DNA from: Candidatus Auribacterota bacterium
GTDB taxonomy: Bacteria > Auribacterota > Tritonobacteria > UBA1439
NCBI GenBank assembly: GCA_026392035.1
Contig: JAPLCX010000068.1
Span: 1-42,457, forward strand
Length of the DNA stretch: 42,457 nt
Reading direction: 5' to 3'
In this document: in pieces, positions 21,981-27,540 of the stretch
Numbering within the stretch: position 1 is the stretch's first letter
Layout: each line of letters starts with the position of its first letter
Program-made: the position numbers and the translations under genes
The notes under the pieces: generated by a model
What the model was told of the DNA's origin: nothing
What the model saw: the letters and a program-made list of their open reading frames with translations, nothing else
Databases searched by the model: none

Positions 21981-22018
21981 CCACACTCCTCCCAACTCCC
22001 TCCCCCAATCCCCATTAT

Positions 22019-22060
22019 TGGGATTTGGGATTTGGGATTTGGGATTTTATCTGGGATTTA
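22019..22060 (+). repeat. GGGATTT array before BMC-P1
   Basis: Four near-perfect 7-bp units of GGGATTT are followed by TATCTGGGATTTATCCCGG. It lies in the 94-bp spacer between the BMC-H and first BMC-P genes. The complementary array is at 23068-23131, on the other side of the three BMC-P genes. Confidence 0.85.
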
Positions 22061-22074
22061 TCCCGGAGGGATTG

Positions 22075-22386
22075 ATGCAGCTCGGCATAGTGATGGGAAC
22101 GGTCGTCTCGACGAATAAGAGCGAGAACATTCAGGGATTGAAGCTCCTGCTCGTCCAACAGCTCTCTCACACCAACAAGCAGCTCAATAACTATGTCGTC
22201 GCCGTCGACGTCGTGCAGGCGGGGATCGGCGACGTGGTGCTCTACTCAGAGGGGAGCTCCTGCCGGCAGACACAGCTCACCGACAAGAGGCCCGTCGACG
22301 GCGTGGTCATGGCGGTCGTTGACACGTGGGAAGTCGGGGGAAAAGAGATATACAACAAATCCCAGGCAGACACATTACAGAAATAA
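22075..22386 (+). CDS. Microcompartment pentameric shell protein (BMC-P, EutN/CcmL), first copy
   Basis: This 103-residue protein starts at the ATG at 22075, with GGAGG upstream. An upstream open frame is non-coding repeat. The fold signature is the N-terminal strand GIVMGTVVSTNKSENIQGLK, then LLLVQQL, YVVAVDVVQAGIGDVVLYSEG, and the C-terminal VDGVVMAVVDTWEV. Five copies form the pentamer that caps shell vertices. The C-terminal extension KEIYNKSQADTLQK is longer than in the next copy. It is separated from BMC-P2 by a 70-bp hairpin spacer. Confidence 0.92.
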   Translation: MQLGIVMGTVVSTNKSENIQGLKLLLVQQLSHTNKQLNNYVVAVDVVQAGIGDVVLYSEGSSCRQTQLTDKRPVDGVVMAVVDTWEVGGKEIYNKSQADTLQK

Positions 22387-22387
22387 T

Positions 22388-22447
22388 TTGCACCTGATCT
22401 TACTGATATACCTGATGCTTCATAGCAATCAGAGTAATCAGGTGCAA
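22388..22447 (+). repeat. Hairpin spacer 1 between BMC-P1 and BMC-P2
   Basis: TTGCACCTGAT (22388-22398) pairs with ATCAGGTGCAA (22437-22447), with further partial pairing inside (TTACTGAT against ATCAGAGTAA). The surrounding 110 bp, including the start of the next gene, is nearly identical to 22730-22834. Confidence 0.85.
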
Positions 22448-22456
22448 TAACTGAAC

Positions 22457-22729
22457 ATGAAAATCGGCAAAGTGATCGGCACGGTGGTGGCGAGCAGCAA
22501 GGTGGACTCGCTCACGGGAGTGAAACTGCTCCTCGTACAGCCGCTTGACGAAGACGGCGCGCCCTCCGGCGAGCCGGTCGTGGCATGCGACACACAGCAA
22601 TCAGGTCCCGGCGAAACGGTTTTCTACATCGGGGGACGCGAGGCATCGCTGCCGCTGCCGGAGCCGTTCAACCCATCGGACGCCACGATTACCGGGATCA
22701 TCGACAGGGTGACAAGAGAAGTGAAATAA
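22457..22729 (+). CDS. Microcompartment pentameric shell protein (BMC-P), second copy
   Basis: This compact 90-residue EutN/CcmL protein runs from MKIGKVIGTVVASSKVDSLT through GVKLLLVQPL, VVACDTQQSGPGETVFYIGG and ATITGIIDRVTREVK. It is a vertex pentamer subunit. The first 15 codons are nearly identical in DNA to those of the third copy, because both genes sit after a duplicated hairpin spacer. Downstream of that point the two proteins diverge strongly. Confidence 0.92.
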   Translation: MKIGKVIGTVVASSKVDSLTGVKLLLVQPLDEDGAPSGEPVVACDTQQSGPGETVFYIGGREASLPLPEPFNPSDATITGIIDRVTREVK

Positions 22730-22731
22730 TC

Positions 22732-22790
22732 TGCACCTGATCTTACTGATATACCTGATGCTTCAGAGCAATCAGAGTAATCAGGTGCAA
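22732..22790 (+). repeat. Hairpin spacer 2 between BMC-P2 and BMC-P3
   Basis: TGCACCTGAT (22732-22741) pairs with ATCAGGTGCA (22780-22789). It differs from spacer 1 at only two positions before the following start codon. Equal 70-bp spacers follow the first and second pentamer genes. Confidence 0.85.
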
Positions 22791-22799
22791 TAACTGAAC

Positions 22800-23153
22800 A
22801 TGAAAATCGGAAAAGTCATCGGCACGGTGGTGGCAACGCTGAAGCACGAGGGATTCAATGGGCGGAAGCTCCTCCTCGTGCGCCCCGAGGATCCTCACGG
22901 CAAGAAAACGGAGACGCCCGTCGTCGCCGTGGATACGGTCCGGGCGGGCGTGGGTGACCATGTGCTCTTCGTGGACGAGGGGAACTCCGCCCGGCAGGTT
23001 CTCGACTGGACCGATGGCTGCGTCAGGGCAGTCATCGTGGGCTACATCGACGAGGTGAACCTCGCCGAAAATCCCAAATCCCCCCTCGGCTTCGCTCGGG
23101 ACAAGCGCATCCCAAATCCCAAGCAAATTTCAAACCATCGACCTGCCCGATAA
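22800..23153 (+). CDS. Microcompartment pentameric shell protein (BMC-P), third copy with a repeat-derived tail
   Basis: This 117-residue EutN/CcmL protein has N-terminal strand MKIGKVIGTVVATLKHEGFN, then RKLLLVRPED, VVAVDTVRAGVGDHVLFVDE and VRAVIVGYIDEVNLA, where the family usually ends. The remaining 25 or so residues are encoded by an AAATCCC/GCTCGGGAC repeat (residues FARDKRIPNPK), so the frame has run through an inserted element. Three different pentamer genes in a row is a feature of the PVC-type microcompartment loci. No enzyme gene follows. Confidence 0.9.
   Translation: MKIGKVIGTVVATLKHEGFNGRKLLLVRPEDPHGKKTETPVVAVDTVRAGVGDHVLFVDEGNSARQVLDWTDGCVRAVIVGYIDEVNLAENPKSPLGFARDKRIPNPKQISNHRPAR
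23068..23131 (-). repeat. AAATCCC array with a PERSRG-type hairpin
   Basis: AAATCCCAAATCCC blocks flank the hairpin CCCTCGGCTTCGCTCGGGAC. On the minus strand its translation contains ACPERSRG, a peptide signature I know as a widespread dispersed repeat. It is inverted relative to the array at 22019-22060 and overlaps the coding end of BMC-P3. The stretch from 23132 to 23268 holds no gene I can defend. Confidence 0.8.
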
Positions 23154-23971: not shown

Positions 23972-25789
23972 TTATCTGGGACTTGGGATTTGCTCCTCAG
24001 GGGTTCTCGTCCCGAGACCTCGTTCGGGGTCGAGGGAGGATTTGGGATTTAATTTCTCCAGCTCTCCCCTCGCCATAACCGCAATCTCTTCCGCGGCGCG
24101 CGGCGCGTCCAAGAGACGCGCCTCTTTCGAACCTCGGTGCTTGATCTCAATCTTCCCCTGGGCAAGCCCCTTCGGCCCAACGATGACCCTCAGCGGGATC
24201 CCGACGAGATCGGCGTCCTTGAACTTGACCCCCGGCCGTTCATCGCGGTCGTCCAGGAGTACCTCGACACCCTTCTCACCCAGCGCCCGGTAGAGCTCCC
24301 CGGCAACCTTCATCGTCTCCTCATCGCTCACGTTCATGGGGATGATCTCGACATGGTATGGCGCGATTGACATCGGCCATATTATCCCGTTCTCATCGTG
24401 GTGCTGCTCGATAGTGGCGGCGGCGGTTCTGGTGACGCCGATCCCGTAGCAGCCCATGACGAACGGCTTCGCGACGCCATCCTTGTCCGAAAATGTCGCC
24501 CCCATCGATTCGCTGTATTTCTTCCCCAATTTGAATATCTGACCCACCTCGATCCCGCGGTAGGCGGTGAGCGCCTGTCCGCACTGCGGGCATTTATCCC
24601 CCTCGCGCACGAGGAGGAGATCGTGCCATTCATCAACGGAGAAATCCCTCCCCTCGCACACACCCGTGAGATGGTAATCTGTTTTGTTTGCGCCCGTGAC
24701 ACCGTTGCAGATGCCCTCAATGGTAACTTTATCTGCAATGACACGAACCGTGCTCCCCTGCAGTCGGAGCTTGACCGGCCCCGCGAAACCCAGGGGAGCG
24801 CCGGTGATTTTATAAATGGTCTCCTCGCCGGCGAGCGCGACCTCGTGCGACCTCAGCGCCTTCTGGAGCTTCGCCTCGTTCACGTCACGATCTCCGCGAA
24901 TGAGCACGACAACCCCCTTCCCCGCCGCTTCGTAGACGAGGGTTTTAATGAGCTTCTCGGGCGGGACCTTGAGGAAAGCCGCCACCTCCTCCACCGTCTT
25001 GTACCCCGGCGTGTGGACCTCGCGCAATCCCTCCATCGGCTCCTTGAGTTTCGTGGGGATTGGCGGGTTGCCGATGGCGGTGTCAGTGGTTGCGGCGTAC
25101 CCGCATTTCGTGTCCGGGCAGGAGATCACCACTGTTTCTCCGGATGAGGCGAGCACCATAAACTCATGTGTCACCTTCCCCCCCATGATCCCGGGGTCGG
25201 CAAGCACCGCCCTGAAGTTGAGGCCGCACCGGGCGAATATCCGCGAGTACGCCTCGTTCATGACCTGGTAGTAGTCGTCGAGGGACTCCTCATCCCGATG
25301 GAAAGAATACGCGTCCTTCATGGTGAACTCACGCCCGCGCATGACTCCGAAACGGGGCCGGACCTCATCACGGAACTTCGTCTGGATCTGGTAGAGGCAG
25401 AGGGGAAGCTCCTGGTACGATCGCACCTCACCCCGGACCGTGTGTGTGATGATTTCCTCGTGCGTGGGGCCGAGCGCGAACTCCCTCTCGTGCCGGTCCT
25501 TCAGGCGCATGAGCTCCTTGCCATACTCGTCCCAGCGGCCGCTCTCCTTCCAGAGCTCTGCGGGGCTGAGGATGGGGAGAAGCAGCTCCTGGGCGCCCGC
25601 GCGGTCCATCTCCTCGCGCACAATCTGCTCCACCTTCCTGATCGTGCGCCAGCCGAGGGGGAGGTAGGTATAAATCCCCGCGCCGAGTTTGCGCATCATC
25701 CCTGCGCGGATCATGAGCTTGTGGCTTACGATCTCAGCCTCAGCCGGGTCTTCTTTCAGCGTCGGTATGAATGCCTTTGTCCAGAGCAT
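23972..25789 (-). CDS. proS: Prolyl-tRNA synthetase, bacterial type with editing domain
   Basis: The ATG at 25789 begins MLWTKAFIPTLKEDPAEAEI, the true family N-terminus. The upstream open frame is GGGATTT repeat. The 605-residue enzyme has the class II catalytic core (motif 2 around KFRDEVRPRFGVMRGREFTM), a YbaK-like editing insertion (about residues 230-390, including KGVVVLIRGDRDVNEAKLQK), a CPQCG segment and a C-terminal anticodon-binding domain. It charges tRNA-Pro. After ELEKL the last two dozen residues come from an inserted repeat (SLDPERGLGTRTP), so the original stop was lost. No ribosome site is visible before the start. Confidence 0.95.
   Translation of the reverse strand: MLWTKAFIPTLKEDPAEAEIVSHKLMIRAGMMRKLGAGIYTYLPLGWRTIRKVEQIVREEMDRAGAQELLLPILSPAELWKESGRWDEYGKELMRLKDRHEREFALGPTHEEIITHTVRGEVRSYQELPLCLYQIQTKFRDEVRPRFGVMRGREFTMKDAYSFHRDEESLDDYYQVMNEAYSRIFARCGLNFRAVLADPGIMGGKVTHEFMVLASSGETVVISCPDTKCGYAATTDTAIGNPPIPTKLKEPMEGLREVHTPGYKTVEEVAAFLKVPPEKLIKTLVYEAAGKGVVVLIRGDRDVNEAKLQKALRSHEVALAGEETIYKITGAPLGFAGPVKLRLQGSTVRVIADKVTIEGICNGVTGANKTDYHLTGVCEGRDFSVDEWHDLLLVREGDKCPQCGQALTAYRGIEVGQIFKLGKKYSESMGATFSDKDGVAKPFVMGCYGIGVTRTAAATIEQHHDENGIIWPMSIAPYHVEIIPMNVSDEETMKVAGELYRALGEKGVEVLLDDRDERPGVKFKDADLVGIPLRVIVGPKGLAQGKIEIKHRGSKEARLLDAPRAAEEIAVMARGELEKLNPKSSLDPERGLGTRTPEEQIPSPR
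23975..24052 (+). repeat. GGGATTT array with hairpin overlapping the proS 3' end
   Basis: ACTTGGGATTTGC and GGATTTGGGATTTAA flank a hairpin-prone segment (CCCGAGACCTCGTTCGGGG). It lies inside the coding end of proS and is inverted relative to the array at 25796-25846. Confidence 0.8.
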
Positions 25790-25795
25790 GGTTTC

Positions 25796-25846
25796 AAATC
25801 CCAAATCCCAATCTCTAAATCCCAAATCCCAAATCCCAAATTCCAA
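25796..25846 (-). repeat. AAATCCC array in the proS leader
   Basis: It contains AAATCCCAAATCTC-type units followed by three perfect AAATCCC units (on the minus strand GGGATTT). It lies between the proS promoter and start codon and occupies the place where a ribosome site would be expected. Confidence 0.85.
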
Positions 25847-25913
25847 TAATGTTAAAAACTACTATAAAAAGCGTGCCGGGCTGCCGGAGTCTCTTCCGCC
25901 CCGCAGAGATGCT

Positions 25914-25964: not shown

Positions 25965-27017
25965 TTATTGAATAAGGACTTCCGCCATGGTCATCCCAAG
26001 TGCACGGCGGGGAAGTGGCTCCGCGTACAGTGGGAACAGGCCAAGATAGATTTTATAAACCCCGGGGGAGATACGCGGTTTGATCATCGTCTCGGTCAGC
26101 GTCTCGCACCACACGCTCTTCAGTCCCCTGCGTCTGCCGATGAACGGTGAGATCCCCGGAGCCAGCTTCCGCCTCTTCGTAAAAGAAAGCTCCTGCCCCG
26201 ATGGCGTGACGATCACCGCATACGCTTTAAACGGGCCGTCCACGGGACCGACAATCGCGTCGAGAGAGAACGGGCTCCCCCTCGTCACGCGTGCGCTGCT
26301 CGGGGCTGCGTAGATGTTCGCGAGCGGCGGGAGGCCCAATATTTTCCTCGCCTCCTCCGGCGTGGCGATCGGCCGCTGTGCCGCCCGGGCCATGGAGATC
26401 GACTGTCTGAGATAATCCAGATTCGTCGGCTTCCGCTTGTACGGCCATCCCGAGCTATCGTGAAGCCCAAGGCGCAGATGGCCGCCCCTTGAAATCGTCT
26501 CGCGTATAATGCCCATCGCCTGCTGACCCACGGCAACGGTCACGGGGTTATCCTCCTCGCGTGTTGAATCGAATTCGATCCGCTTATTGCAGCGGACCCA
26601 CTCCTCGACTTCCTTCCCCGCTCCCCCGAGATCGCAATCGATGATGAGATCCGGCGCCGCGGCGAGCACCTCGCGGAGGAGCGCGCGATAGTTATTCACG
26701 TCGCGGTCAAAATGATAGTCAGCCGGCGAACTCTCCGCGGCAATCGGCTGTAGACGCACCATTGATGCCCCGATCTGAGCGCACGTTTTAATCTCCTCAA
26801 GATACTCTTTCCGGCGCGCGGGGGTTTCGCGCGATATCGCGCCGCCCGGTTCAGGGAGCAGGGCGACCTCTATGATCAGGGGGGGGCCTTTACGCGCCGC
26901 TTTCTGTGCCGTACGACGCGTGACACCCCCGGCAGGCGCCCTCGTGACCTGCGGATCAATGCTGACGCATCCGCACACAACGAGAAATAGAATGGCGAAG
27001 CTATTGATTGCTCTCAC
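25965..27017 (-). CDS. Lipoprotein with a degenerate BKACE (DUF849) domain
   Basis: This 350-residue protein has a lipoprotein signal with lipid-anchor cysteine 17 (VCGC). Residues 45-230 match the BKACE fold family (beta-keto acid cleavage enzymes, DUF849): a first barrel strand PLIIEVALL, then GASMVRLQP, PDLIIDCDLGG, and the unmistakable end RGGHLRLGLHDSSG followed by SISMARAAQRPIATPEEARK and ILGLP. BKACE enzymes hold zinc with an H-x-H pair and the Glu of a G-x-E-D motif. Here these are Arg88, Gln90 and His186, while Arg182 and Asp187 are kept. The barrel is about 85 residues shorter than usual. Residues 231-350 form an unassigned beta-rich domain. It is probably a binding or structural protein, not a classical BKACE. 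Confidence 0.7.
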   Translation of the reverse strand: MRAINSFAILFLVVCGCVSIDPQVTRAPAGGVTRRTAQKAARKGPPLIIEVALLPEPGGAISRETPARRKEYLEEIKTCAQIGASMVRLQPIAAESSPADYHFDRDVNNYRALLREVLAAAPDLIIDCDLGGAGKEVEEWVRCNKRIEFDSTREEDNPVTVAVGQQAMGIIRETISRGGHLRLGLHDSSGWPYKRKPTNLDYLRQSISMARAAQRPIATPEEARKILGLPPLANIYAAPSSARVTRGSPFSLDAIVGPVDGPFKAYAVIVTPSGQELSFTKRRKLAPGISPFIGRRRGLKSVWCETLTETMIKPRISPGVYKIYLGLFPLYAEPLPRRALGMTMAEVLIQ

Positions 27018-27399
27018 GCTTTTCCCCTCTCATCCTCCCCTCCATCTCATTCAGTCTCCACTCGATTGATGAGAGGACCCAGAACATGAAATGCATCTGC
27101 CTCAAAAACGTATGGAGCAGGTACATGATCTTGACCGAGATGAGAATGACGCCGATCTCGATCATCGGCAGCACGAGCCTCCCGTGGGTGACGATCGAGA
27201 TAAGAAAACAGACAGCAATGACCAACCCGAAGAGCACATTGAACAGCTTATGCCTGAAGGTGGGAACGCCTCCGATCTTGCCGATGATGGCGCGTATGCG
27301 TTCCTTTTCGCGCTTGAACTGTTCGATCTCCTCGGCGAGGGTGTGCTCCTTCTCGCGATCTATCCGCGCTGACTCATCGTTCCTCATGCGCCATACCAT
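27001..27399 (-). CDS. Small membrane protein with N-terminal coiled coil
   Basis: The ATG at 27399 has GGAG 5 bp upstream, giving 132 residues. The N-terminal part is charged and predicted coiled coil (REKEHTLAEEIEQFKREKER). Two transmembrane helices follow (VLFGLVIAVCFLISIVTH and LPMIEIGVILISVKIMYLL), then an amphipathic tail (FWVLSSIEWRLNEMEGRM). I do not recognise a family. It overlaps the BKACE-like lipoprotein gene by 17 bp, so the two are likely made together and may act at the same membrane. Confidence 0.65.
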   Translation of the reverse strand: MVWRMRNDESARIDREKEHTLAEEIEQFKREKERIRAIIGKIGGVPTFRHKLFNVLFGLVIAVCFLISIVTHGRLVLPMIEIGVILISVKIMYLLHTFLRQMHFMFWVLSSIEWRLNEMEGRMRGEKRESNQ

Positions 27400-27540
27400 A
27401 GCAGCTCCGAAGCCTGCGTTCAACCATAAAAACCCCCCTCATGACCTGCGATTTTTTCCTGCGATTTTTTCTATCCAACCGGTTTAAAATAACATAAACT
27501 ACGTGGCGCATCAATCGACGAAAGTGCCCATTGAAAAAAG

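Follow-up and report, generated by a model that had tools for sequence, protein, structure and literature searches.

A zinc-less, exported lipoprotein of BKACE descent in an uncultured family of Auribacterota

Introduction

Known BKACE proteins are zinc enzymes of the cytoplasm. The family (PF05853, formerly DUF849) includes Kce (2y7d) and BKACE15 (8rio). The proposed catalytic base of BKACE15 is Glu171 (PMC11961710). In the PDB sequence of that protein, Glu171 lies on strand 5 within R-F-E-F-E-C-Y-D, and Arg254 lies within G-G-H-V-R. The cis-epoxysuccinate hydrolase (5zmu, 5zmy), which catalyzes another reaction, belongs to the same superfamily: it has a full-length barrel and a strand-2 histidine pair, V-H-F-H, but its strand-8 sequence, GLGDY, departs at the zinc glutamate position, as does that of the protein described here. 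Finally, three-quarter, (β/α)6 part-barrels, which have lost two β/α units, have been described among splice variants and engineered fragments; the published listing gives them as folded, yet without activity (PMC3741200).

Here we describe a lipoprotein of an uncultured Auribacterota family. Sequence comparisons indicate that a normally cytoplasmic zinc enzyme has been turned into an exported lipoprotein and kept in all six genomes of the family that were examined. In contrast to the reported part-barrels, the window family is a naturally fixed, exported and conserved bacterial protein. A search of the open-access literature found no exported BKACE and no TIM-barrel pseudoenzyme lipoprotein; this is weak evidence, but it agrees with the first-pass annotation of this DNA, which had considered an exported, non-zinc BKACE to be undescribed.

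The gene and its product

The window, as the term is used here, is the whole stretch of DNA analyzed: the 42,457 nucleotides of contig JAPLCX010000068.1. The lipoprotein gene occupies positions 25965–27017 of the minus strand, starts with GTG and encodes 350 residues; its assignment rests on the open reading frame, the Pfam match and orthologues in five further genomes. The N-terminus, M-R-A-I-N-S-F-A-I-L-F-L-V-V-C-G-C, was judged by inspection to be a short type II signal peptide (26967–27017, minus strand) with the lipobox L-V-V-C-G/C17. The lipobox had been noticed in the first-pass annotation, and its cysteine is found in five of the six orthologues; the sixth (G005) starts with a signal-peptide-like sequence that does not contain it. 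Together, the signal and lipobox support the view that the window protein is an exported lipoprotein. Its C-terminal module, typical of exported proteins as described below, also supports export and, indirectly, an envelope location with lipidation.

Pfam returned a single match for the 350-residue protein, to BKACE (E = 5.1e-19; score 69.1 bits, curated cut-off 24.8 bits). The match falls in two stretches, profile positions 1–95 and 203–274, with no match between them. In place of the intervening 107 profile positions (96–202) the protein has roughly 20 residues, which leaves the barrel short by about 85–88 residues, or a quarter of its length, consistent with an initial estimate of 85. The BKACE-derived domain comprises residues 46–232 (26322–26882, minus strand) and carries the strand-8 signature G-G-H-x-R-x-G-L and the C-terminal helix ATPEEAR-x-x-LGL of BKACE enzymes. 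With a profile of the orthologues, the best-matching relative of known structure was Kce (E = 8e-10). On these sequence data, the core of the lipoprotein descends from a BKACE enzyme, as had been proposed. The genome encodes no BKACE-family protein besides the window protein.

Loss of the zinc site and catalytic base

A survey of 384 genomes gave a BKACE match in 56, and 42 BKACE enzymes were aligned for comparison with the lipoprotein. All 42 keep both zinc histidines, the zinc glutamate, the next aspartate and the strand-8 arginine. In the alignment with Kce, Arg88 and Gln90 of the window protein occupy the positions of the two zinc histidines, and His186 that of the zinc glutamate, exactly the replacements that had been read from the window sequence. 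The first two lie where strand 2 ends, in R88-L-Q90-P91 (26745–26756, minus strand), a segment that is R-x-Q-P in all six orthologues and H-x-H in all 42 enzymes; the third (26460–26462, minus strand) is His or Arg in the six orthologues and Glu in every enzyme. Thus, the complete H-x-H plus Glu site is present in 42/42 enzymes and 0/6 orthologues, and the alignments indicate that all three zinc ligands have been lost from the lipoprotein family. By contrast, the strand-8 arginine, equivalent to Arg254 of BKACE15, and the nearby glycine are retained as Arg182 and Gly184, both invariant in the six orthologues.

The catalytic base has also gone from the window protein, because strand 5 falls inside the deleted segment; Arg182 persists despite this loss. 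Because the protein lacks the metal and the base and is outside the compartment of the cofactor, CoA-dependent cleavage of a β-keto acid by the window protein appears very unlikely. The protein is of BKACE descent but fails on zinc, on catalytic residues and on the eight-stranded barrel, and it should not be classed among the BKACE enzymes. An annotation as 3-keto-5-aminohexanoate cleavage enzyme would mislead here.

Orthologues and conserved residues

A single-sequence search of genome contigs initially gave no match; relatives were recovered with a profile. Among 98 genomes searched, full-length orthologues of 41–52% identity were found in five other genomes of the family and in none outside it. 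A profile search of 44 genomes of the phylum likewise yielded six carriers, the other 38 being without an orthologue. All six orthologues have a match to the BKACE family.

Residues invariant in the six orthologues include Glu50, Arg88, Gln90, Pro91, Asp127, Asp129, Arg146, Glu148, Arg182, Gly184, Trp191 and Pro192. Several are distinctive of the lipoprotein family: position 127 is Asp, in place of the Gln, Asn or other residues of BKACE enzymes; position 129 is Asp, in place of Ser, Thr or Gly; and position 50 is Glu, in place of what is mostly Thr. Chance is excluded as the source of these substitutions because the orthologues in six genomes share them. The pattern of conservation indicates that the former zinc site has been rebuilt with fixed residues, and not left to drift.

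Predicted structure

The structure of the window protein was predicted with AlphaFold2 from an alignment of the six orthologues, both for the whole protein (pLDDT 82.8; pTM 0.79) and for the barrel alone (pLDDT 87.0; pTM 0.86). The predicted strands span residues 49–51, 86–89, 125–128, 147–150, 159–162 and 180–183, and the predicted helices correspond to helices 1, 2, 3, 7 and 8 of the BKACE fold. More specifically, the model is a compact (β/α)6 barrel equivalent to BKACE without the segment from helix 4 to helix 6, which includes strands 5 and 6; a complete (β/α)8 barrel is absent. Within the barrel, the invariant residues are grouped where strands 2, 3, 4 and 8 end, on the side that bears the active site in BKACE enzymes. 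The loop after strand 8 (residues 186–195) was predicted with low confidence, making the shape of the pocket mouth uncertain.

In Foldseek searches of the PDB with both models, the top 28 chains were all BKACE, DUF849 or cis-epoxysuccinate hydrolase structures, although Foldseek also draws on sequence, so that this result overlaps in part with the profile evidence. With the barrel as query, TM-scores were 0.59–0.75. The predicted fold is therefore that of a BKACE-related barrel. The first-pass annotation had named two outcomes that would speak against its view, a fold unrelated to the TIM barrel and zinc ligands kept by homologues; neither was encountered. This conserved, exported branch offers a natural test of how a TIM barrel may shed catalysis and two β/α units while remaining folded and under selection.

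A second zinc-less group in another phylum

Searches for BKACE proteins identified two further zinc-less lipoproteins in another phylum, L084 (G299:C39:7877-8656) and L085 (G162:C97:15215-15994), and a profile search found a third protein of this type, L097 (G388:C602), whose frame is cut at the N-terminus. Seven genomes of that phylum were searched, and three have the gene; a broader search of 195 genomes of another phylum gave no match. L084 and L085 have a lipobox and, from N- to C-terminus, IPT/TIG, BKACE-like and propeller domains. The group has no zinc site, the residues at its zinc positions being Q/R, H/F and Q/N, and has in common with the window family the W-P motif after strand 8 and a similar strand-2 region. 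Unlike the window protein, which has neither IPT/TIG nor propeller domains and a shortened barrel, these propeller lipoproteins have a full-length barrel region (profile positions 21–273), do not carry the Ig-like module and do not adjoin proS. By inspection, L084 neighbours an aspartokinase-like gene, and L085 neighbours LL-diaminopimelate aminotransferase-like and dapF-like genes.

In a maximum-likelihood tree of 51 sequences, the three proteins grouped with the window family, apart from the 42 enzymes, with support of 99/97, although both groups sit on long stems (1.4–1.5), and long-branch attraction may have played a part. In favour of a true relationship are the common W-P motif, the strand-2 region and export. 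Few of the pocket residues of the window family are kept in the propeller lipoproteins, in which Arg182, for example, is replaced by Ala or Val. We therefore cannot claim a shared ligand for the two groups.

The C-terminal Ig-like module

The extra β-rich domain noticed in the first-pass annotation is indeed present. It is predicted to be an Ig-like β-sandwich of residues 233–350 (25968–26321, minus strand; pLDDT 92–97) without a significant match in Pfam, and it proved to be a family-specific module in which many exported proteins end, frequently behind a Pro/Thr-rich linker. Its hosts, classed by inspection, include propellers, a β-helix protein, a metallo-β-lactamase-like protein and an SGNH-like protein. 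Counting the lipoprotein, a profile of the module gave 30 matches in G000, 27 in G001, 14 in G002, 17 in G003, 2 in G004 and 15 in G005, about 100 places overall, and none in the remaining 38 genomes of the phylum. The module is possibly a surface-sorting or attachment domain. This use of an otherwise Pfam-unmatched module on many exported proteins of one Auribacterota family has now been brought to light.

Function of the barrel

We favour, with moderate confidence, the view that the protein is an envelope pseudoenzyme, held by its lipid and reused to bind a ligand or a partner; this function is inferred from sequence and from the predicted model. According to this view, the lipid anchor would hold the BKACE-derived pseudoenzyme at the envelope. 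The mouth of the barrel, remodelled around the invariant Glu50, Arg88, Gln90, Asp127, Asp129, Arg182 and Trp191-Pro192 together with His/Arg186, is the former active-site face and might bind either a partner protein or a small ligand of polar or anionic character. A common role in surface attachment or spacing would fall to the Ig-like domain. A tentative further reading is that Glu50, Arg88, Gln90, Asp127 and Asp129 form a new non-zinc site in a naturally evolved, lipid-anchored and exported BKACE barrel of six strands, which would serve the envelope as a specific receptor or as an enzyme, within an exported BKACE-like clade spanning two phyla.

It is also conceivable, though we consider it doubtful, that the protein is purely structural, the shortened barrel being a stable spacer or docking block that carries the Ig-like domain and has no ligand pocket. 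The C-terminal module is, after all, common to many exported proteins, most of the pocket residues are not common to the related propeller lipoproteins, and proS is the only conserved gene partner. A simple block does not readily account for the stronger conservation of the barrel, whose pairwise dN is 0.24–0.45 as against 0.37–0.75 for the Ig-like domain, nor for the clustering of the invariant residues on the BKACE active-site side.

It is improbable that the protein is active at the envelope as an enzyme of new chemistry. In that case, Glu50, Asp127, Asp129 and Glu148 would form with Arg88 and Gln90 a site that is metal-free or holds another metal and acts on a small extracellular substrate. 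The invariance in six genomes of the charged residues facing the former active site is consistent with this, and the cis-epoxysuccinate hydrolase shows that the BKACE fold can change its chemistry. Nevertheless, no known catalytic-site motif was recognized, and the inactivity of the published (β/α)6 part-barrels argues against it.

Genomic context

The lipoprotein gene lies directly upstream of proS, encoding proline–tRNA ligase (23972–25789, minus strand; identified by Pfam), and on the same strand, in all six genomes. At its other end, its start overlaps by 17 bases an ORF (27001–27423, minus strand) that encodes a small coiled-coil membrane protein. The first-pass annotation had taken this overlap to couple the two genes. 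The overlap is real, and in one other genome (G004) the coiled-coil gene also adjoins the lipoprotein gene, upstream and in the same order, making two of six; these observations would be expected of a two-gene envelope complex. However, no match to the membrane protein was found in the other four genomes that carry the lipoprotein, and the membrane protein occurs without the lipoprotein in eight further genomes of the phylum, with unrelated neighbours in the five of those that were read. We therefore reject the pairing, to which we attach a very low probability, on the distribution and neighbours of the coiled-coil gene across the phylum, and regard the membrane protein as a separate protein. 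Its family (27001–27423 of the window and L122–L126) occurs here and there across the phylum, its neighbours varying from place to place, and corresponds to no Pfam family.

The missing ligands and the gap of about 88 residues look like decay, but a pseudogene or assembly artefact resembling a shortened BKACE can be dismissed as next to impossible, the orthologues already refuting it: six separately assembled genomes have intact frames of the same shape at the same locus with the same invariants, and dN is below dS in the barrel for every pair (dS being near saturation).

Some minor features of the locus were also observed. In G004, the lipoprotein frame (L027:2041-4845, contig C284) continues without a stop into proS (...ITVECEFLFWTKAFIPTLKE...). 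This may reflect a fusion of the two genes in frame, initiation of proS within the lipoprotein frame or an error of assembly; the two genes are separate in the other five genomes. A large frame in G002, considered as a second fusion with proS, proved to be another reading frame.

Beside proS, positions 22000–23153 of the window contain three consecutive EutN/CcmL-like microcompartment vertex genes, two of them confirmed by Pfam, and by inspection no other shell genes were recognized in the window. Inspection showed EutN-type sequence beyond proS in relatives as well. Since the interior of a microcompartment is out of reach for an exported lipoprotein, we make no claim of a functional link. Lastly, GGGATTT heptamer-like repeats, which translate as GIWDLGF, occur between genes at 25800–25850 and near 22000 of the window, and are present in the relative L026 too.
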